35,485 nt of DNA, from contig CAIJMU010000002.1 of assembly GCA_903821875.1 (NCBI GenBank), forward strand, positions 1 to 35,485. The letters are read 5' to 3'. The translations under genes and the position numbers were made by a program. A model generated the notes under the pieces. That model was not told the origin of the DNA. It saw only the letters and a list, made by a program, of their open reading frames with translations, and made no database searches. This DNA is from an uncultured Spirochaetota bacterium (lineage in GTDB: Bacteria; Spirochaetota; Spirochaetia; Treponematales; Rectinemataceae). This document shows positions 415 through 24,732 of this stretch, piece by piece (positions within the stretch are counted from its first letter, which is position 1; every line of letters begins with the position of its first letter).

Positions 415-457
415 TCGCGAAAGCTGGAAGCCGAGAGCAGGCTGGGTGGAGGAAGGC

Positions 458-1474
458 ATGAGCGAAAAGCGACTCGCGGGGATGGCCAGGGTGGAGTACG
501 AGAAGGGGAGGCGGATCGTCGCTCCCCTCATGGGCTTCCCCGGCGTCGAACTCACCGGGAGCAACATCAAGCTCGCCCAGCAGAACTTCGGGGAGCACTT
601 CAGGTCCATCAAGAAGCTGGTGGACCGCTTCAACCCCGATCTCGTCTTCCCCCTCATGGACCTCTCCGTCGAGGCGAACGCCCTCGGCCGCTATGTCGTC
701 TTCCCCAAGGACGACTCGGCCACCGTGCCCAAGGACCACTTCCACCTCTCTGACCTCGACAGGATGAGGGAGATCAGCTTTTCCTTCGATACCAGGGTCA
801 TCGGCTACATCGAGACGGTCAAGCTCATGAACGTCGGACTCCCTTCCCACGTGATGCGCGGAGCCTACATCGCCGGGCCCTTCACCCTCGCGGCCCTCAT
901 CATGGGCGCCGAGGAGGCCGCCATGGCTACGATGGTGAGCCCGGAGGAGCTGCACGTGCTCTGCGATTTCACGACAGAGAAGATAGAGGAATACGCCAGG
1001 CTCCTCATCTCGGCCGGAACCCAGCTGATCTGCATCCTCGAGCCGAGCGCGGTGATGCTGGGGCCGGCGCAGTTCCGCGAGTTTTCGTCGAATTACGTGA
1101 AGCATCTGAACGACGGCTGCAGGTTCAGCGGCGTCAGCACGGTCTACCATACCTGCGGGAACACGATGAACCTCGTGCGCGAAATGGTGGCCGCGGGCGT
1201 CGAAGGCCTGAGCCTCGACTCAGCCGAGGCCGGTGTCGACCTGCGCCGCGTGATGGAGCTCGTTCCTCCCGACGTCGCGGTGATCGGCAACGTGAATCCC
1301 ACCAGCGTACTCCTCCAAGGCAGCCCGGAGACGGTCAGGTCCGAGGTCGTCAAGCTGCTCCAGGATATGAGGCCTTGGCCAAATTTCATCCTCAGCACCG
1401 GCTGCGACCTGCCCCAGGAGACTCCCCTCGCGAACATCGAGGCCTTCATGAAGGCCGGCCGCGAAGGAGCCTAG
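458..1474 (+). CDS. Uroporphyrinogen decarboxylase-family (MtaA/CmuA-type) methyltransferase
   Basis: This 338-residue protein belongs to the UroD/MtaA fold family, whose non-heme members move methyl groups between a corrinoid protein and a thiol or folate acceptor. The family zinc site is visible: H231 and C233 in YHTCGNT and C316 in STGCDLPQ. The first residues of a UroD proper (the substrate-binding arginines) are not evident, which favours a methyltransferase over a heme enzyme. I chose ATG 458 because GGAGGAAGG sits just before it; an in-frame GTG at 446 would fall inside that ribosome-binding site. It stands alone between a terminator and a convergent gene, with no MtaB- or MtaC-like partner beside it. 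It may feed the C1 operon at 16887-22778, but that is inference. Confidence 0.85.
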   Translation: MSEKRLAGMARVEYEKGRRIVAPLMGFPGVELTGSNIKLAQQNFGEHFRSIKKLVDRFNPDLVFPLMDLSVEANALGRYVVFPKDDSATVPKDHFHLSDLDRMREISFSFDTRVIGYIETVKLMNVGLPSHVMRGAYIAGPFTLAALIMGAEEAAMATMVSPEELHVLCDFTTEKIEEYARLLISAGTQLICILEPSAVMLGPAQFREFSSNYVKHLNDGCRFSGVSTVYHTCGNTMNLVREMVAAGVEGLSLDSAEAGVDLRRVMELVPPDVAVIGNVNPTSVLLQGSPETVRSEVVKLLQDMRPWPNFILSTGCDLPQETPLANIEAFMKAGREGA

Positions 1475-16886: not shown

Positions 16887-17813
16887 CTACACCAGAGGCC
16901 TTGGGAGGAGCCCCGCTGTCTCCACGATCTCGCGGATGCGGTGCTCCCATTCGATGGCCATCACGTGGATGCCGGAGAGGCCCTCGATGGCGCGGAGGCG
17001 CTGGATCGTTTCCGCGCAGATGGCCAGCCCGACCTCGCCGCCCTTACCCTTGGGAGCAGCGGCCAGGCGCTCGATGACGGAGGCGGGGATCACGATCCCC
17101 GGGAGGTTGGCTGCCATGTGGCGCGCCATGCCCGCTGACTTCAGCGGCATGACGCCTGCGAGGATCCTGCATTTCTTGTGGAGCCCCAGCTCGCGGACTG
17201 AAGCCATCCAGTCCTCGAACATGCCGATGTCATAGACGCACTGGGTCTGTACGTAATCGGCCCCGGCCTCGATCTTCTTTGCCAGGCGGAGGGCCTGGAA
17301 ATCGAGGGGACGCGTGAAGGGGCTGGCTGCAGCGCCAAGGTAGAGGGGAGCGCCGGCGGGGAAGTCCTCCTCGCCACCGAGGATCCTCCGCTCATCGCGC
17401 ATGCGCCGTACGACTGCAAGCAGTTGCATGGAATCGAGGTCAAAGACCTTCTTTGCCCCCTTCTGGTTGCCGAGGCTCTGGTGGTCGCCGGAAATGCAGG
17501 TGAGGTTCCTTATGCCGAGTCCCACCGCCCCGAGGATGTCAGCCTGCATCGCGATGCGGTTCCGGTCGCGGCAGGTCATCTGCATTATGGGCTCGAGGCC
17601 TGCCTGCACGATGATGGCCGAGACCGACATGCTCGACATGCGCACCATCGCCGACTGGCTGTCGGTTACGTTGATGGCGTCCACGACACCGCGGAGGCTC
17701 TCGGCCTTGCGATGCACAGCCTCGATGTCAGGACCCGTGGGAGGCCCGATTTCGCCGGTCACCGCGAAGTGCCCCGCCTCGAGCACTTTTTCCAGATTGC
17801 TGCCTGATTTCAT
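16887..17813 (-). CDS. metF: Methylenetetrahydrofolate reductase, acetogen-type MetF
   Basis: This 308-residue TIM-barrel flavoprotein interconverts 5,10-methylene- and 5-methyl-tetrahydrofolate. Family positions are present: E21 (VTGEIGPP, the catalytic glutamate), D110 (CISGDHQS) and a Q/T/Q triad near 189-191 (YVQTQCVYD) in the folate-binding strand. The extra cysteines and the partner MetV gene directly upstream (ATGA overlap) mark it as the two-subunit type known from acetogens rather than the stand-alone E. coli type. ATG 17813 is chosen for that overlap; the in-frame start at 17966 lies inside metV. It is the last gene of the seven-gene C1 operon, which also holds a second, fused MTHFR. 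Confidence 0.92.
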   Translation of the reverse strand: MKSGSNLEKVLEAGHFAVTGEIGPPTGPDIEAVHRKAESLRGVVDAINVTDSQSAMVRMSSMSVSAIIVQAGLEPIMQMTCRDRNRIAMQADILGAVGLGIRNLTCISGDHQSLGNQKGAKKVFDLDSMQLLAVVRRMRDERRILGGEEDFPAGAPLYLGAAASPFTRPLDFQALRLAKKIEAGADYVQTQCVYDIGMFEDWMASVRELGLHKKCRILAGVMPLKSAGMARHMAANLPGIVIPASVIERLAAAPKGKGGEVGLAICAETIQRLRAIEGLSGIHVMAIEWEHRIREIVETAGLLPRPLV

Positions 17814-18502
17814 GGTGCTGCCACCTTCGCTGCTGTGTAGCGACCCTCGTAGCCCACCTGCACCAGAGTAGCTGGCCCCCGATCGACCCAATCCATCGGC
17901 GGGCGCAGGCTGAGGATGCTGTCCAGGCGTCCCTGGGCCTTGAGACGATCGTGGATTTCCAGCCATGCGCAGCTCTTGCCCTCGCCGACCTCGCAGCCAC
18001 CATCGACCCGCGTTCCGCCGCAGGGCCCGTTGAAGAGGCTTTTTGCGCAGCGTGTCACCGGGCAGATTCCACCTGTGTAGGCCAGCATGCAGGAGGCGCA
18101 GTGGCGGCAGCGCTCTTCATAGAGCCCCACATCGATGTCGACACCGATGAAGAGGGTGTCCAGGGCGGGAAAGACCGGCAGGGCAGGAAAGGCATCGGAG
18201 AGGTTCTGGACTCCAGCGCCGCAGGCAGTGGAAAGGACGCAATCGCAGTCTGCTATCCGTCCGGAGATTTCCGCGAGGAAGACCGGATTGCACTGGCGTT
18301 CGACCGTCGCAGAGCTCTGGTGCTGGGTGGAACCTCCTGCCCGCGCCACCTGGGCGAGGTCGTCGGCCAGTTCGAGGCTCTCCCTCTGGCCCCCGGCGAG
18401 GCAGACCGAGGTACAACCCCCGCAGCCCAGCACGAGGATCCGTCCGTAGCCCTTCACCGAGGAGGATATTTCCTCCAGGGGTTTCCGCGTCGCCTTGATC
18501 AT
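17810..18502 (-). CDS. metV: MetV-type zinc/iron-sulfur partner subunit of MTHFR
   Basis: This 230-residue cysteine-rich protein matches MetV (MTHFR_C domain). An N-terminal half has C27, C30 and C34 (CGGCTSVC). The C-terminal domain has a cysteine series at about 132, 135, 138, 147, 152, 161 and 170 (CRHCASC, GGICPVTRC, NGPCGGTRVDGGC). In acetogens MetV binds metal or iron-sulfur centres and passes electrons to the flavin of MetF. The start at 18502 has GGAGGG upstream. A 49-base gap separates it from the cytochrome gene; that gap holds a perfect 20-bp palindrome and a possible internal promoter. So metV-metF may be expressed both with and apart from the upstream electron-transfer genes. Confidence 0.92.
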   Translation of the reverse strand: MIKATRKPLEEISSSVKGYGRILVLGCGGCTSVCLAGGQRESLELADDLAQVARAGGSTQHQSSATVERQCNPVFLAEISGRIADCDCVLSTACGAGVQNLSDAFPALPVFPALDTLFIGVDIDVGLYEERCRHCASCMLAYTGGICPVTRCAKSLFNGPCGGTRVDGGCEVGEGKSCAWLEIHDRLKAQGRLDSILSLRPPMDWVDRGPATLVQVGYEGRYTAAKVAAP

Positions 18503-18518
18503 GTTGCGTTCCCTCCGC

Positions 18519-18538
18519 GGCCCGTCGATCGACGGGCC
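18519..18538. promoter_or_regulatory. Perfect 20-bp palindrome before metV
   Basis: GGCCCGTCGATCGACGGGCC is fully self-complementary and lies between the cytochrome c and metV genes, 16 bases before the metV start and directly next to its ribosome-binding site. As RNA it would form a stem of 7-8 bp with a short loop that could limit access to that site; as DNA it could be a dimeric repressor site. No T run follows, so it is not a standard terminator. Confidence 0.6.
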
Positions 18539-18541
18539 ACG

Positions 18542-18570
18542 ATCATACTAACTATTTCCATGGATGGCAG
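18542..18570 (-). promoter_or_regulatory. Possible internal promoter for metV-metF
   Basis: On the minus strand CTGCCA (18570-18565), a 17-base spacer and TATGAT (18547-18542) precede the palindrome and metV. The -10 box matches consensus at five of six positions. The region overlaps the end of the cytochrome gene, including its TAG stop. Confidence 0.35.
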
Positions 18571-18956
18571 TCGCCGCAGCTGCGGGGTCCTGTCGGTTTT
18601 GCCTTTTTCGCCGCTGTTTCATGGCAGCCAATGCACAGGCGGTGGAAGGAGGACTGGAGCTTCCCGGCGCTGCGGTGGCAGGATGCACACTGGATCGCGG
18701 GGCCGCCGGCTGCGAGGACTGACATGTCCAGCACGTTCACGCCGTCCTTGAACTCGTGGTGGCAGGACAGGCAGTCGAGCCCCTCGAAACCCCAGTGTGC
18801 CTCGTGGGGAAAACGCACCGGAGGGCGGGTCGGCCTCGCGATCACAGGCTTCCCGGACAGCGTGATGATGCCTGCATCCTCGGCACGGACTGCGGGCGAC
18901 ATCGCGATGGCGAGGAGGGCCAGGGCGCAGGCCCAGGGCGGAAGGCGCGCCTTCAC
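18552..18956 (-). CDS. Exported tetraheme cytochrome c (class III, cytochrome c3-like)
   Basis: From GTG 18956 (GTGA overlap with the iron-sulfur gene) this is a 134-residue protein with a signal peptide ending near AVRA-ED (residues 25/26). It has four CxxCH heme sites: CLSCH 62-66, CASCH 90-94, CIGCH 108-112 and CGDCH 127-131. Additional histidines at 51, 54, 67 and 105 can act as sixth ligands. The FPHEAHWGFEGLDCLSCHH arrangement is the hallmark of cytochrome c3. It should act outside the cytoplasmic membrane as a low-potential electron carrier. It sits in an operon of C1 enzymes beside a cytoplasmic-facing iron-sulfur protein and a NarI-like membrane protein, which resembles the TmcA/TmcB/TmcC arrangement of sulfate reducers but with MTHFR proteins added. 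A longer frame to 19541 on this strand is an artefact. Confidence 0.9.
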   Translation of the reverse strand: MKARLPPWACALALLAIAMSPAVRAEDAGIITLSGKPVIARPTRPPVRFPHEAHWGFEGLDCLSCHHEFKDGVNVLDMSVLAAGGPAIQCASCHRSAGKLQSSFHRLCIGCHETAAKKAKPTGPRSCGDCHPWK

Positions 18957-19348
18957 GCGTTCTTCCCTTCCAGGTAGCCGCGCTCGATGCCCACTTCCCT
19001 GCAGGCCGAGCGCGCCAGCGAAATGAGGTAGGGAAGATCCACCCCGACGGGACAGCGGCAGCGCATGCAGAGCACGCACTTGTCGAAGGCCAGCTCCCTG
19101 ACTTTCTCGTACTCCCCGGGCGAAAGCCTGCCTCGCCTCTTCACGATCTTTCCAATTGTGTTGATCGCCTTGTAGGAGGGTGTATAGGTCGGGTCCTGGC
19201 CGCTGTTCCGGTACTTGAAGCAACTTTCCGCGCAGAGGGCGCAGTGGGCGCAGGCGCCAAGGGAGAGCTTGACGAGTTTCCGCCTGCGCCTGACTAGGTC
19301 CAGCACCTCGGCATTCACCGGCGCTGCCTTTGTCGCTGTTGTTTTCAT
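18953..19348 (-). CDS. HdrC/GlpC-like dicluster iron-sulfur protein
   Basis: This 131-residue soluble protein has two cysteine clusters of the type seen in HdrC, GlpC and DsrK/TmcB-like electron-transfer proteins: CAHCALCAESC (CxxCxxCxxxC) and CVLCMRCRCP. The second has one residue instead of three before its last cysteine (CxxCxxCxCP), which is unusual. It has no signal peptide, so it works on the cytoplasmic side. The first 25 residues are basic (VRRRRKLVK). ATG 19348 overlaps the stop of the membrane-protein gene (ATGA) and the gene's own stop overlaps the cytochrome start (GTGA), so membrane protein, iron-sulfur protein and cytochrome are made together. It probably links the MTHFR subunits to the membrane protein. 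Confidence 0.87.
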   Translation of the reverse strand: MKTTATKAAPVNAEVLDLVRRRRKLVKLSLGACAHCALCAESCFKYRNSGQDPTYTPSYKAINTIGKIVKRRGRLSPGEYEKVRELAFDKCVLCMRCRCPVGVDLPYLISLARSACREVGIERGYLEGKNA

Positions 19349-20142
19349 GCGGCCCACCGCCGGCTGGCGTGCCTGGCCGAACGCTCTCCTGCCATGAAGA
19401 GGCGGGAGAACAGGAGGAAGGGCATGTGGCCGAGTTTGGTAAAGGGTATGGCTGCGATGAGGAGCTCGCCCAGGAGCATGTGGCCGACGAGGATGCCGTG
19501 ATAGTCCCAGGCCTGGTGGTAGGCCAGATAGGCGCTGACAAAGGGGGCCGCTACGAGAAGGAGCACGGCAATGTCCCCTCCCGTCGTCAGGGCCCGGACG
19601 CGTGGCAGGAAGATCCGGCGGAGGGCGAAAAAAAGACCAATTGCAAGGATCACCAGGGTCAGCCGGTCCATGAGGGGTTCGGGCAGGACGGGGAGGGACA
19701 GGCCCGCGCCTAGGCCCAGTCCCAGGAAGAGGAGGATGTTGTGTGCGGGCAAAAGGAGGGGGACAAGGACCAACAGGAAGTGGAAAGCCAGGCTGAAGGC
19801 TGTCATTACCGGATTGCCTGCAAGGTTCGAATTCCTGAGAAAGCGGCGCCCAAGGAATAATATCCGACTGACTATTCCCTTGTCCGGAAGGAGGAAGGCC
19901 CTGTCGGCCTCTGACCGGTCCTGAGCCCTTCGCGTGGCCAAGGACAGGGAGTCGAGAGCAGCGGCGTCCAGTCGGACTCCTGCTCCCGGGACCCTTCCCC
20001 GGGCAGCAATGGAGCTCGAAAGCCTGGCGAAGCGAAGGATACGCCAGGCAAAGCCCAGGATGAACACACTGCAGGCGACAAGGAATAGCGGGCCACGCGC
20101 CGCGTCATAGAGCGAAAAAAGCTCAAACCCAGGCAGGCTCAT
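19345..20142 (-). CDS. NarI/DsrM/TmcC-like membrane cytochrome b subunit
   Basis: This 265-residue protein has about five or six hydrophobic helices: around 18-36, 112-132, 135-155, 160-178, 190-208 and 216-235. A charged cytoplasmic region of about 65 residues lies after the first helix. Histidines in or near helices (H121, H134, H209, H215, H221, H239) are placed as expected for two b-type hemes, as in the gamma subunit of respiratory nitrate reductase and the related TmcC, DsrM and HdrE proteins. Such proteins pass electrons between the quinone pool and a bound iron-sulfur subunit. It lies 16 bases after the fused MTHFR gene and overlaps the iron-sulfur gene. Heme binding is inferred from histidine positions, not proven. 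Confidence 0.82.
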   Translation of the reverse strand: MSLPGFELFSLYDAARGPLFLVACSVFILGFAWRILRFARLSSSIAARGRVPGAGVRLDAAALDSLSLATRRAQDRSEADRAFLLPDKGIVSRILFLGRRFLRNSNLAGNPVMTAFSLAFHFLLVLVPLLLPAHNILLFLGLGLGAGLSLPVLPEPLMDRLTLVILAIGLFFALRRIFLPRVRALTTGGDIAVLLLVAAPFVSAYLAYHQAWDYHGILVGHMLLGELLIAAIPFTKLGHMPFLLFSRLFMAGERSARHASRRWAA

Positions 20143-20158
20143 GATCCGCTCATCGAGT

Positions 20159-21742
20159 TCACGTTTTTGCCACCTGGGTCTCCTCCTGGTCCTTTTCTGA
20201 GCAGGGGATCAGGGGATGGCCGGAGTGGTCACGCTTGAGGAAGTAATTGAGCCAGGAACTCGTCTGATACAGGCTCCAGTCACGGGGCTGGATGAGGAAG
20301 CGGAGCTTTTCGGATTCGTGGCGGTTCTTGGCCCGCTTGTAGACATTCCTCCAGTAGCAGTACTTGTCGGGATAGACCTCGCAGCGTTCGTCCACCCTGC
20401 TTCCGCCGCAGGGTCCGATGCGCATCCCCTTGGGGCAGCCGGATTCCGGACATATATAATAGGTCTCGAAGAGGGCGCAGTCGTCGCAGTAACGGCAGCC
20501 GAGGACAACGCGTTTGGTGAAGTGCTCGGCATGGGAGAAGGCGTGCGCGAGGCCCTGCTTCTTGTCGATAGCCCGTGAGAGCCCGGCCATGAGCTTGTAG
20601 CCGGCGGTGTTTTCGTGGAAAAAAGCCTTGTGGAGTCCGCGCATGGCCCAGAAGGTCGGCGAGTACATTCCCGGGATCGGGGTCTGCCGTGGCAGCAGCA
20701 GCGCTTCGGGTGATGGCACCCTGGCTACTTCTCCGCCCTCGAAATAGTAATAGGGATCGGGAGGAGCAAAGTCGAACTCGGGCAGGAAGTCCTTCCAATT
20801 GGCTGCAATTTCCTTGGAATGGGCGATGATGTAGACGATGTCCTCTGCCTTGAGGTTGAGTCCCTCGAGGTGGGCTCCCGAGTAGCCGAGGCCCTTCAGG
20901 ATGGCCAGCTGCCTGGCTGCCCGGTCGAGGCGGGCCTTCTTTCCCTTGTCAGGGGCCTTCGCCTCCTCGCGGAGGATCTTGACCAGGCGCTCGGGAACGT
21001 AGGAGCCGGGAACCTCGCCCTTGCTCATGTACTCCGCGGCACCCGCTGAAAGGACATAGACGCTGCCGATGAGGGGTACCTGGGATTTGAGCACTCCACG
21101 GACATAGTTGATCAATTCGATGTGCTTGCGGGCGTCGTAGCCGAGCTGGGTGATGAAGTATTTCGCTCCGGCACGGAGCTTTTTTTCCAGCTTGATGTAC
21201 TGCATGACGCAGGGGCCTTCCGTCCACTTGAAGGGGGAGACGGCTGCGCCGAGGAGGAACAAGGTAGTGTCGAGGCAGACATTCGCGCCCTTGGCCCCGG
21301 CTATCTCCAGCCCCTCGTTCATGCTGGTCAGGAAGTGGAGGGCGTTCACCGAGTCGATGTCGAAGACCGGCTTGGGCAGGCCCAGGAAACCCGCGACGGG
21401 ATAATCGCCCGTGACGACGAGGAGGTTGGTCACGCCGGTGCGCTGGAGGGCGAAGGCGCGGGATTCCACGAAATTCCGGTTCATGTCCTTGCAGGCGAAG
21501 TGGACAATTATGTCCACGCCGAGGTCGATGATTTCCTTGCCGAGCACGTCCGCCGTCAGGGCGGGGTTTCCCCCCGCGTTGTCGGTGAGGCTCAGGGCAT
21601 GTACATCGGGGCAGGACTTGATGTCCGCCACGAAGCGGAGGATGTTTTCAATGCTCTTGCCGCTGTGTCCGCGTCCAGGGATGAGTTCGCAGGTGATCAC
21701 GAACTCCTTCCCTGCGAGGAGGGTCTCTTCGAAACGTCCCAT
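20159..21742 (-). CDS. MTHFR-MetV fusion protein
   Basis: This 527-residue protein joins an MTHFR barrel (about 1-310) to a MetV-type cysteine domain (about 355-470). In the barrel E19 (ITCELIPG), D113 (TGDYP) and Q199 (FITQLGYD) stand at the family's catalytic and folate-binding positions, so it looks active. The C-terminal domain has cysteines at 416, 419, 422, 431, 436, 445, 454 and 462, including CRYCDDC and GPCGGSRVDERC, closely parallel to MetV of the same operon. It lacks the N-terminal CGGC half of MetV. ATG 21742 has GGGGAG upstream. It is the second gene of the operon, between the methyltransferase and the membrane subunit. Having fused and split MTHFRs in one operon is unusual; they may form one complex or work in opposite directions. 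Confidence 0.9.
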   Translation of the reverse strand: MGRFEETLLAGKEFVITCELIPGRGHSGKSIENILRFVADIKSCPDVHALSLTDNAGGNPALTADVLGKEIIDLGVDIIVHFACKDMNRNFVESRAFALQRTGVTNLLVVTGDYPVAGFLGLPKPVFDIDSVNALHFLTSMNEGLEIAGAKGANVCLDTTLFLLGAAVSPFKWTEGPCVMQYIKLEKKLRAGAKYFITQLGYDARKHIELINYVRGVLKSQVPLIGSVYVLSAGAAEYMSKGEVPGSYVPERLVKILREEAKAPDKGKKARLDRAARQLAILKGLGYSGAHLEGLNLKAEDIVYIIAHSKEIAANWKDFLPEFDFAPPDPYYYFEGGEVARVPSPEALLLPRQTPIPGMYSPTFWAMRGLHKAFFHENTAGYKLMAGLSRAIDKKQGLAHAFSHAEHFTKRVVLGCRYCDDCALFETYYICPESGCPKGMRIGPCGGSRVDERCEVYPDKYCYWRNVYKRAKNRHESEKLRFLIQPRDWSLYQTSSWLNYFLKRDHSGHPLIPCSEKDQEETQVAKT

Positions 21743-21764
21743 TGTCGATGCTCCCCTTATTCCG

Positions 21765-22778
21765 TCATTCCCGGCTCACGCCGATCCACTCCATCCCGTA
21801 CTCGTCCTTGCCAAGGAGGAGGTCGCGGGCCAGGGCGTTGATGCCCGTGGAAAGATCCAGTTGCGACAGGGTCCTGTCGTTGATCTGGGCTGGATCGACG
21901 ATGCCGCCGTCGCAGCCCTGTTCGAGGCAGAGCTTGGCGAAGACCTGGTTGATCACGGGGCGCTTCGGGAGGCCGAAGGACACGTTGGAGAGTCCTGGCG
22001 CAAAGTGCACCGCGCTTCCATGCTCGGCGCGCAGGGCCTTTACCGTCTCGAAGAAGCGCCCGGGGTTGCCTGTATCCACCGAGACGGGCATGACCAGAGG
22101 ATCGAGGTAGGTGTCGGCCAGTGCGATGCCGGCGGCGGCGAGCCGTCCGAGCAGCTCCCTCGTGTTCGCCAGCCGCTCCTCGACGCTCTCCGGCATGCGC
22201 TCGGCGCCGGTGGCCCCCGCGATCACCGCCGCTCCCGCCTTGGCTGCAATTGGTATCATCGCGGCACGTTCGAGGGACACGGAGTTCACCATCGGGCGGC
22301 CCTTGGTCTTGTCGCAGGCTGCGAGCCCAGCTTCCAGGATGCGGGAATCGGAGGAGTCGATGCTGAGGGGCACCGTGGAATGCCGCTGGATGACGCCGGC
22401 CGCCCACTCCATGGCCAGGACCTTCTCCTTGAAATCCATGCTGAACTCGTCCACGTTGACGTCGAGGAACCAGGCGCCCGCGGATTCCTGCTCCAGGGCC
22501 ATCGCTGCCATGTAGCGCTCGCCGGCGGCCCTGCCCTCTGCATCGCCCCTGAGCCCCTGCCAGATGGCGGCGGCGACGTGGCGGATCTTCCCGGCCTTCC
22601 AGTCGTCGGAATCGGTGAAGGCCCTGGGTATGGGCAGGCGGGCGGGGGAGCCTGAGTCCTTGAAAAGGAGCCAGCTCCTCCCCTCAGGATCGGTTTCGAC
22701 GAACTTTCCCGATGTGAGCCTGATCCGCGTACAATGGATATTCTCACCTACGATGATATATGAACCCTTGGCGGCCAT
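21765..22778 (-). CDS. Pterin-dependent methyltransferase (AcsE/MtgA/MetH pterin-domain family)
   Basis: This 337-residue protein has the dihydropteroate-synthase-like fold used by methyltetrahydrofolate:corrinoid methyltransferases. Landmarks are IIVGENIH at the start, D106 and N108 in FLDVNVDE, D141 in LSIDSSD, N165 in VNSVSLE, and AVIAGATG. It should move the methyl group between tetrahydrofolate and a corrinoid protein. It is longer than AcsE (about 262 residues), with an extra segment at 20-85. ATG 22778 follows GGAGGAAAAC; the longer frame to 23081 runs into the divergent promoter region and is rejected. As the first gene of the C1 operon it places methyl-THF as the shared substrate of the downstream MTHFR enzymes. 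No corrinoid protein or CODH/ACS gene is in the window. Confidence 0.88.
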   Translation of the reverse strand: MAAKGSYIIVGENIHCTRIRLTSGKFVETDPEGRSWLLFKDSGSPARLPIPRAFTDSDDWKAGKIRHVAAAIWQGLRGDAEGRAAGERYMAAMALEQESAGAWFLDVNVDEFSMDFKEKVLAMEWAAGVIQRHSTVPLSIDSSDSRILEAGLAACDKTKGRPMVNSVSLERAAMIPIAAKAGAAVIAGATGAERMPESVEERLANTRELLGRLAAAGIALADTYLDPLVMPVSVDTGNPGRFFETVKALRAEHGSAVHFAPGLSNVSFGLPKRPVINQVFAKLCLEQGCDGGIVDPAQINDRTLSQLDLSTGINALARDLLLGKDEYGMEWIGVSRE

Positions 22779-23001: not shown

Positions 23002-23043
23002 CCTCCAGCATCTGGCGCGCCTGTGCGCCCACCAGGACCGAAG

Positions 23044-24732
23044 ATGGCCGAAGAAATACGACTCTGGGGCACACGCCGCACATCGGCCCCTTCCCGCCCC
23101 GAGTATCCCGAGATCTATCCCGAGACAGATGATCGGCATTGGTACGATCTTGAATACGCGGGCTGGGGGGTAGCCAAGGCAGGCCTTCCAGCCTCGCCGA
23201 GGGACGGCCCTGCGGGCAAGCGCATCATCGCCATCCATCACCTCGAGGGCCACCCCTACATGACCGGCTACGACCTTGGCATGGCCCGCGAGGCCGAGCG
23301 CTTCGGCATTTCCCTCGAGATCGCGCATTCCGAGTGGGACTCCGAGATCGAGGCGGGGCTTGTCGAGAGTGCCATCGCTTCGAGGCCCGACCTCATTGTC
23401 TTCGTCCCGGAGAACACCGCCGAGGGTACGGCCCTCCTCCGTCGCATCAACGAGGCGGGCATTCCCGTAGTGGCTAGCAACCTCCTGCCCGAAGCCGAGG
23501 GGCACCGCTACTGCCTCGCGTGGACGGGACCCGACGACTGGGGCCAGTTCAGGCTGATCGCGCGGAAGTTCGCGGAACTGCTCGGCGGCGAGGGAGGCTA
23601 TTGCCTCGTCGACCACATGCCTGGCTCCTCGGCCTTCTACGCACGCAAATGGGCAGTGCTGACCGAACTTGCACGCATCGCACCCCGGATGGAACTCCTG
23701 GACTCGGCTGCGACTTCGCTCCGCACAGATACGACAAGAGCCACGGTCCTGGCCTGGGCTGAACGCTTCGGCGCGAGGCTACGTGGCATCATCAGCGCCG
23801 ACGACTCCCTGGCCCAGCTCGGCATCAATCAGGCCCTTGCGGAAGCCGGGCGCGAGGATATAGTCCGCGTTGCCTGCGGGGCTACCTCCATGGGCCTCCG
23901 CTTTCTCCGCGAGGGCAGCCTTGCAGCCATCACCGCCCAGTCGCCCGAACTCGACGGCGCCCTGCCCATCCGCGTCGCCGTAGACTGGTGGAACGGCCTC
24001 GATGTCGAAGCGGTGCGCTATCTTCCCATCGACCTCGTCGAGCGTGATGGCATCGAGGACTTCCTCCTGATGCGACAGGGGGAGCCCGACATCGATCTCG
24101 ACGCCCTCGCTCACATGGTCGCTGACTGTGACGCAAAGGGCGTCGACCGCTTTTTCCGGGACCTCGGACATCGTTTCGGGCACGGTCATCCGATTGCAGA
24201 GGAGTGGTTCCGAGGCTTTTCCATCGAGCTACTCTCCCGCCTCGATTCCATCGCGCGCTCGGCCGAGATCTCGACCGCAGCCCTTGCCGGAGGATACGAG
24301 GGCCTCTTCAAGCAGCTGTTCCAGCAGCGCAGCCCGACAGACACCCTGGCCTGGCTCGAGGGCGTCGCGCGCCAGGTCATGGCTGCTGCAGGCGAGCGCA
24401 GCCATAGCTGCGTTCCCCTCGGCGACAGGCTGCGCCTCTTCATCGACGGGCACTGGCGCGAACCCCTCTCCCTCAAGCTCCTCTCGGGCCGTTTCGGAAT
24501 GTCCGCTGCCTACCTGGGCAAGGTCTTCAAGGAGGAGACCGGACAGTCCTTCGCCACCTACCTCAACGAGCGGAGGATCAGGGAGGCCGAGCGCATCCTC
24601 GCGACGCGCCGCGTCAAGGCCAAGGACGTCGCCCTTGCCGTGGGCTACTCCGATGCCAACTACTTCTACAACGTCTTCAGGAAGGTCACCGGCCGCTACC
24701 CCTCCGAACTCCAGGGGCGCGAGGGAGAATAG
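23044..24732 (+). CDS. AraC-family transcription regulator with periplasmic-binding-protein-like sensor domain
   Basis: This 562-residue cytoplasmic regulator has no signal peptide. Residues from about 65 to 345 form a type I periplasmic-binding-protein fold like LacI/XylR sensors, with IAIHHLEGHPYMTGYDLGMAREAER at the start and GIISADDSLAQLGINQAL later, so it binds a small ligand. A helical region follows. The last 100 residues are a double helix-turn-helix AraC domain with the signature AYLGKVFKEETGQSFATYL and DVALAVGYSDANYFYNVFRK. ATG 23044 has AGGA before it; the in-frame GTG at 23023 is less likely. It is divergent from the C1 operon with a palindrome between them, so it is the likely controller. 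The ligand is unknown; sugars are usual for this architecture. Confidence 0.9.
   Translation: MAEEIRLWGTRRTSAPSRPEYPEIYPETDDRHWYDLEYAGWGVAKAGLPASPRDGPAGKRIIAIHHLEGHPYMTGYDLGMAREAERFGISLEIAHSEWDSEIEAGLVESAIASRPDLIVFVPENTAEGTALLRRINEAGIPVVASNLLPEAEGHRYCLAWTGPDDWGQFRLIARKFAELLGGEGGYCLVDHMPGSSAFYARKWAVLTELARIAPRMELLDSAATSLRTDTTRATVLAWAERFGARLRGIISADDSLAQLGINQALAEAGREDIVRVACGATSMGLRFLREGSLAAITAQSPELDGALPIRVAVDWWNGLDVEAVRYLPIDLVERDGIEDFLLMRQGEPDIDLDALAHMVADCDAKGVDRFFRDLGHRFGHGHPIAEEWFRGFSIELLSRLDSIARSAEISTAALAGGYEGLFKQLFQQRSPTDTLAWLEGVARQVMAAAGERSHSCVPLGDRLRLFIDGHWREPLSLKLLSGRFGMSAAYLGKVFKEETGQSFATYLNERRIREAERILATRRVKAKDVALAVGYSDANYFYNVFRKVTGRYPSELQGREGE

Follow-up and report, generated by a model that had tools for sequence, protein, structure and literature searches.

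The DNA analysed here, which we call the window, is a stretch of 35,485 nucleotides from an uncultured Spirochaetota bacterium. It is a whole contig of a 4.68-Mb, 193-contig, 97%-complete draft assembly, which is probably a metagenome-assembled genome (MAG). Open reading frames read along the window confirm seven minus-strand genes at 16887-22778, and five of these (16887-20142) are our main subject: they combine MetV and MetF, the proteins of a methylenetetrahydrofolate reductase (MTHFR), with a membrane cytochrome b, a short iron-sulfur protein and an exported cytochrome c that resemble parts of the Tmc and Hmc complexes of sulfate reducers. Window proteins were assigned to families with Pfam and NCBIfam profile scans, and in order of transcription the genes are:

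21765-22778, minus strand: pterin-binding methyltransferase (MeTr) akin to methyl-THF:corrinoid methyltransferase, 337 aa; PF00809 E 3e-20, PRK07535 E 2e-54 (below its cut-off); same operon, not core
20159-21742, minus strand: fusion of MetF with a C-terminal MetV domain, 527 aa, a second, divergent MTHFR; PF02219 E 2e-15 and PF12225 E 3e-25; same operon, not core
19345-20142, minus strand: TmcC/HmcE-like diheme cytochrome b membrane subunit, 265 aa; NF045723 E 5e-42, HmcE E 2e-33; core
18953-19348, minus strand: short 2[4Fe-4S] protein corresponding to the N-terminal part of TmcB/HmcF without CCG (TmcB-N), 131 aa; NF045724 and NF045711, E 2e-23 and 4e-22; core
18552-18956, minus strand: TmcA-like exported tetraheme cytochrome c3, 134 aa, GTG start; NF045722 E 2e-19, PF02085 (Cytochrom_CIII) E 4e-11; core
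17810-18502, minus strand: MetV, iron-sulfur/zinc partner of MetF, 230 aa; PF12225 (DUF5981) E 3e-32; core
16887-17813, minus strand: MetF, methylene-tetrahydrofolate (methylene-THF) reductase flavoprotein, 308 aa; PF02219 E 4e-38; core

The gaps between these genes are, in the same order, 22, 16, -4, -4, 49 and -4 bp, so two of the three 4-bp overlaps join tmcC, tmcB-N and tmcA, and the other joins metV and metF. All reading frames are intact, the G+C content of the module is similar to that of the rest of the contig, and no RNA families or tRNAs were found in the window. An earlier note on this DNA, made from the sequence alone, had described seven minus-strand genes with three 4-base overlaps, and our coordinates and gaps agree with it. 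Its family assignments also hold (Pterin_bind, MTHFR plus DUF5981, TmcC/HmcE, TmcB/HmcF N-terminal part, TmcA/Cytochrom_CIII, DUF5981 and MTHFR), and its label "NarI-like" for the membrane protein is right at the level of the predicted fold. The label "HdrC-like" for the iron-sulfur protein is likewise apt for the fold, but the protein is more exactly the N-terminal half of TmcB/HmcF.

The TmcC-like protein has the four heme-ligating histidines in two helix pairs expected of a NarI-like diheme cytochrome b. H121, H134, H221 and H239 are invariant in 42 sequences and, in a profile match to NarI (E 5e-7), align with NarI H56, H66, H187 and H205, which we take to be the ligands of its two hemes. 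A predicted model (pLDDT 84) matches NarI best (Z 12.0, 173 aligned, rmsd 4.5) and then EtfD (Z 8.1); a Z of 12 is possible for helical bundles in general, and the likeness to NarI rests on the sequence match. The protein thus shares its fold and NarI's four ligands with membrane cytochromes b of the NarI/EtfD type, but its catalytic partner is different.

The short iron-sulfur protein has eight cysteines that are invariant in 50 homologues. Because these homologues are short throughout (mostly 123-134 aa), the lack of a CCG domain is a trait of the family, and the predicted model fits the dicluster domains of SdhB/FrdB and HdrC (Z 7-8). In the TmcA-like protein, four CXXCH motifs and four further histidines are invariant in 38 homologues, a pattern consistent with bis-histidine hemes. 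Its GTG start at 18956 overlaps the stop of the previous gene, and its hydrophobic N-terminus holds a plausible export signal, MKARLPPWACALALLAIAMSPAVRA-ED (ending AVRA-ED). An alignment of MetF with Thermus MTHFR indicates that the active-site Glu and Asp, which are presumably catalytic, are retained in the window MetF as well as in the fused MTHFR. MetF and the adjoining MetV (DUF5981) therefore have the gene make-up of a MetVF-type MTHFR, and the predicted activity of the module is that of a methylene-THF/methyl-THF oxidoreductase. No sequence relative of MetV or TmcB-N was found among solved structures.

The conserved unit consists of five genes, encoding the TmcC-like, short TmcB-N and TmcA-like proteins, MetV and MetF. 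According to searches with the window proteins (tblastn), three further Spirochaetota genomes (G143, G166 and G020) share the order TmcC-TmcBN-TmcA-MetV-MetF, which also occurs at loci L048 and L051. In Desulfobacterota, dozens of members have the same gene set in rearranged order, among them Desulfoluna and Desulfosarcina isolates, and since the set recurs across two phyla, its co-occurrence is more than chance. Scanning named genomes with a MetV alignment gave 80 loci, mostly in Desulfobacterota (e.g., Desulfoluna spongiiphila, D. butyratoxydans and D. limicola, Desulfosarcina widdelii and D. cetonica); this is mostly a sulfate-reducer module. The cytochrome varies: in one spirochaete (G020, locus L036) TmcC is preceded by a fused tetraheme c, and at L095 (4026-5657) and L110 (9818-11449) a 16-CXXCH cytochrome of the HmcA type replaces TmcA beside MetF-TmcC-TmcBN-MetV, with the L095 protein scoring above the HmcA cut-off.

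In a tree of 97 MetV sequences, the 70 that are Tmc-linked form one side of one branch (support 100/97), and Tmc linkage needs a single label change on the tree, compared with a mean of 23.7 for shuffled labels. The window MetV and that of a Spirochaetaceae MAG from a fen group together (100/96) within a set of six spirochaete rows. One MetV is common to G020 and the 'Spirochaetia bacterium' Bin_56_1, and such coincidences with the named collection place the window in Spirochaetota. The nearest MetVs without Tmc adjoin HdrA, MvhD/FlpD, HdrC-like or CCG proteins in the loci examined (L113, L037 and L041), i.e., type IV surroundings. The simplest reading is that a type IV-related MetVF exchanged its Hdr module for a Tmc-like one, apparently once in the sampled set.

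MTHFR types I-IV have been described (PMC8760232), and a membrane linkage of MTHFR has been postulated (PMC8578096). For Sporomusa ovata, a link to the membrane via MvhD-HdrCBA is supported, with subunits that lack transmembrane helices (PMC9430772), and the MTHFR of Thermacetogenium phaeum, found partly in membranes, oxidises methyl-THF with a quinone analogue (PMC6895022); given these precedents, MetVF can exchange electrons at the membrane. Type IV (MetVF-HdrCBA-MvhD of Moorella thermoacetica and S. ovata), for which an electrical link to the membrane has been proposed or demonstrated (PMC8760232, PMC9430772, PMC8578096), shares MetV and MetF with the window module and includes its nearest MetV relatives in the tree. 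However, type IV has HdrA, HdrB and MvhD, whereas the window module instead has a transmembrane cytochrome b of its own, together with a cytochrome c that is exported; the Pfam and NCBIfam scans found no HdrA, HdrB (CCG) or MvhD among the seven window proteins, and such proteins are present in the outgroup loci L113, L037 and L041. Type II has the same catalytic pair, but carries no redox module and works in vitro with reduced ferredoxin (PMC8760232). As for type III, no RnfC-length subunit lies by metVF, and the short iron-sulfur protein has a weak partial RnfC match (E 0.02). The T. phaeum enzyme is comparable in oxidising methyl-THF with a quinone analogue (PMC6895022), but is linked via HdrA and a separately encoded HdrBC/formate dehydrogenase, not a Tmc-like module.

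The other comparison is with Tmc (TmcABCD) and Hmc of sulfate reducers, where homologues of TmcA, the TmcB N-terminal part and TmcC are likewise found in one operon and an HmcA variant also occurs. Here, however, the neighbour is MetVF, TmcB lacks its CCG half, and all window scores lie under the NCBIfam equivalog cut-offs. The match to the TmcB model is confined to its N-terminal part (27-127 to 37-139 of 430) and reaches 82.9 bits against a cut-off of 735, TmcC reaches 143.9 bits against 240, and TmcA, with four hemes and conserved ligands, reaches 69.8 bits against 114. No TmcD-like match appeared among the seven window proteins in scans of the family libraries, whose inclusion of a TmcD model was not checked. 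A bona fide Tmc complex was rejected for want of CCG domains. We class the module as a variant of MetVF-type MTHFR, neither a type IV member nor a Tmc complex.

We put at roughly 0.7 the probability that genes 16887-20142 encode a transmembrane methylene-THF reductase complex, with MetVF wired via a Tmc-like conduit to periplasmic cytochromes and/or quinone. The cytoplasmic catalytic site of Tmc and Hmc lies in the CCG half of TmcB/HmcF, and MetVF would occupy the place of this missing half. MetF, with its flavin, would interconvert methylene-THF and methyl-THF in the cytoplasm and pass electrons to the iron-sulfur protein MetV, from which they would travel via the short 2[4Fe-4S] protein to the hemes b of TmcC; TmcC would exchange them with the hemes c of exported TmcA and/or with quinone. 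The methylene-THF/methyl-THF couple, which lies at -200 mV (PMC8760232), would in this way be connected, instead of with NADH or ferredoxin, with low-potential periplasmic cytochromes or the quinone pool. Such a complex would be reversible: electrons moving inward from the periplasm would reduce methylene-THF with conservation of energy, as proposed for S. ovata (PMC9430772), while outward flow would oxidise methyl-THF, with or without help from the membrane potential depending on the acceptor. On the best reading, the module is an oxidoreductase outside MTHFR types I-IV that works reversibly across the membrane, between methylene-THF/methyl-THF and cytochrome c (or quinone). We lean slightly towards a broader proposal, that a fifth MTHFR class (MetVF-TmcABC-like) forms a true transmembrane respiratory complex, widespread in reverse Wood-Ljungdahl sulfate reducers and spread to Spirochaetota, in which MetVF replaced the CCG half of Tmc/Hmc, methylene-THF reduction with periplasmic electrons conserves energy, and methyl groups are oxidised without NADH or ferredoxin.

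Some observations weigh against a transmembrane MTHFR. In loci with at least 3 kb on both sides, TmcC and TmcBN lie within 4 kb of MetV in 44 of 51, and TmcA does too in 38 of those 44 (in several orders). This co-occurrence speaks for the complex, but module MetVs were the source of the MetV query, which enriches the figure by design and keeps it from being an unbiased frequency. Fifteen of the 38 full-Tmc loci with long flanks have no adjacent metF, so in some cases MetV may work with something other than MetF. Searches of 38 relatives from the same genus, family and order did not find the module, which is therefore patchy around this host; because of this absence and the MetV tree, we infer horizontal transfer into the host lineage. 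Finally, capped searches of the host turned up one large subunit like NuoD or group-4 hydrogenases but no NiFe hydrogenase of the periplasmic kind, which makes H2 a doubtful periplasmic donor for this organism.

A variant compatible with the transmembrane complex keeps MetVF as the cytoplasmic partner but makes menaquinone the membrane partner, with TmcC a NarI-like protein that reacts with quinol/quinone and TmcA either auxiliary or wiring to other periplasmic proteins. We regard this as somewhat unlikely: the relation of TmcC to NarI, with the same four heme ligands, points that way, as do the reduction of a quinone analogue by T. phaeum MTHFR (PMC6895022) and the 6 of 44 TmcC-TmcBN loci with long flanks in which TmcA was not detected within 4 kb, but most loci have a cytochrome c3 or HmcA beside the module, and its fusion with TmcC also occurs. 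That the Tmc-like trio stands by itself as a redox complex and has some other partner in the cytoplasm (e.g., a DsrC-like or thiol substrate), merely sharing operons with metVF, would be in keeping with the role of bona fide Tmc in sulfate respiration (PMC5109826) and with metF not always being adjacent. We consider it improbable, since none of the seven window proteins, the short iron-sulfur protein included, has a CCG domain, and MetV is a constant neighbour whose Tmc-linked forms are monophyletic. The set also occurs in Spirochaetota, a phylum not known to reduce sulfate.

Alternatively, the module MetV might in some hosts serve an oxidoreductase other than MetF, making the conduit a general iron-sulfur/heme adaptor with an MTHFR link in a subset only. 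Loci with TmcC-TmcBN-(TmcA)-MetV and no adjacent metF, such as that of Desulfosarcina cetonica, where two HGD-D genes follow, would fit this explanation. It is nevertheless quite improbable, as MetF homologues are present in 15 of 15 module genomes tested, including those with unlinked metF (the best at least 51% identical, range 51-61%), and metF overlaps metV in the window. An assembly or binning artefact, or a decaying transferred island, might be suspected in a 193-contig draft, probably a MAG, whose relatives seem to lack the module. We think this very improbable: the frames are intact, the ligands are conserved, the G+C content is like that of the contig, and the same gene order is found in unrelated assemblies. 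Both flanks on this contig also align with family relatives at 67-77% DNA identity, and contamination was rejected on that ground.

If the transmembrane complex is real, electrons could pass between a central one-carbon reaction and the outer side of the membrane, and the electron wire of Tmc/Hmc would have been re-used with a new catalytic head. The operon is a concrete, testable candidate for the MTHFR-membrane link postulated for decades: the link previously proposed uses soluble Hdr/MvhD proteins without transmembrane helices (PMC9430772), whereas here a compact operon encodes both MetVF and a conduit through the membrane. It would further point to a path that acetate-oxidising sulfate reducers in marine sediments may use for methyl-group electrons that are not strong enough to reduce NAD+ or ferredoxin. 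The question is testable because the operon exists in cultured Desulfoluna and Desulfosarcina strains.

A membrane-bound, cytochrome-linked MTHFR was what the earlier note had proposed, and it is still the best explanation, with the gene set recurring across two phyla and the linked MetVs monophyletic. Gene-order conservation had been set beforehand as a test that might refute it, and the five genes proved to be co-localised in Spirochaetota and Desulfobacterota. The note knew of no described operon of this kind, and we found no description of a MetVF-Tmc association either in the open-access PMC literature (subscription papers and preprints were outside the scope); the passages that came up in papers on the genomes of D. 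autotrophicum, D. multivorans and of syntrophic sulfate reducers discuss Tmc apart from MetF. Its comparison had, however, left out S. ovata, where MTHFR is linked experimentally to the membrane via Hdr/MvhD (PMC9430772). Two further points need correction: the seven genes are not one conserved unit, because the methyltransferase and fused MTHFR belong to a separate, family-specific association, and the acetogen framing fails for a host without acetyl-CoA synthase and a module mostly of sulfate reducers. The note had suggested looking for CODH/ACS and hydrogenase in the genome, which was searched one family at a time. For hydrogenase the result was the NuoD/group-4-like subunit already mentioned; for acetyl-CoA synthase (CdhC/AcsB), the 97%-complete host genome gave no PF03598 match, so we rejected a Wood-Ljungdahl acetogen.

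What the host does have is FTHFS, five B12-binding_2 matches and, at 8679-17242 of L143 (G000:C65), a respiratory cluster with an NrfC/TtrB-like iron-sulfur protein, an NrfD-like membrane protein and a multiheme c (decaheme family match). This cluster also holds an Fdh-gamma-like cytochrome b and ResB-like and CcsA (cytochrome-c assembly) proteins, and the contig ends before any catalytic subunit. We have moderate confidence that methyl-group oxidation is the likelier direction in this spirochaete, because the methyltransferase/MTHFR pairing is exchangeable and acetyl-CoA synthase is missing, in a host with FTHFS, the methyltransferase and respiratory cytochromes.

The methyltransferase is 70-76% identical in family relatives without a Tmc module; judging from these sequences, it is an ancestral gene of this spirochaete family, where its MTHFR partners are of other types, and it is not core. 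In G249 (L147, G249:C65, 5941-15928), it lies beside an AraC-type regulator, a URO-D-type protein, a short MTHFR-like protein, EtfB, EtfA and a RACo-type corrinoid activator, and in G247 (L148, G247:C107, 1892-3379) beside a MetV-MetF fusion with reversed domains, the MetV C-terminal domain first and the MetF domain last. The family therefore pairs the methyltransferase with exchangeable MTHFR and electron-transfer modules. The MetF-MetV fusion was found without Tmc genes nearby in G163, G147 and G251, and for both reasons a single seven-gene unit was rejected. The L147 set is another candidate MTHFR electron module, Etf-linked. One more gene lies divergent from the window operon:

23023-24732, plus strand: AraC-type regulator with a periplasmic-binding-protein-like sensor domain; PF13407 and PF12833

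It is a possible regulator, and its 79% identical counterpart is the one beside the methyltransferase in L147.

Several other loci are worth recording. The D. cetonica locus (L104, 5432-8022) has the Tmc-MetV module but no metF; after the module come two HGD-D (2-hydroxyacyl-CoA dehydratase-type) genes and, judged by eye, ATPase-like activators, a possible other partner of MetV. At L087 (69-2096, also L092), a MetF-MetV fusion lies about 4 kb upstream of a Tmc-linked module and has an N-terminal extension of about 140 aa with no Pfam name. In another spirochaete (L045, 4686-7817), MetVF adjoins a 1043-aa NuoF-like/pyridine-nucleotide oxidoreductase fusion, a further MTHFR redox partner. The module-bearing spirochaetes G143 and G166 gave no full-length acetyl-CoA synthase match; short CdhC-like open reading frames (246-292 aa, weak PF03598 matches) occur at G143:C7 150550-155396, G166:C281 and G166:C29. 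Near the contig start, window positions 446-1474 encode a URO-D family protein that may belong to the same methyl metabolism as a corrinoid methyltransferase of the MtaA type.

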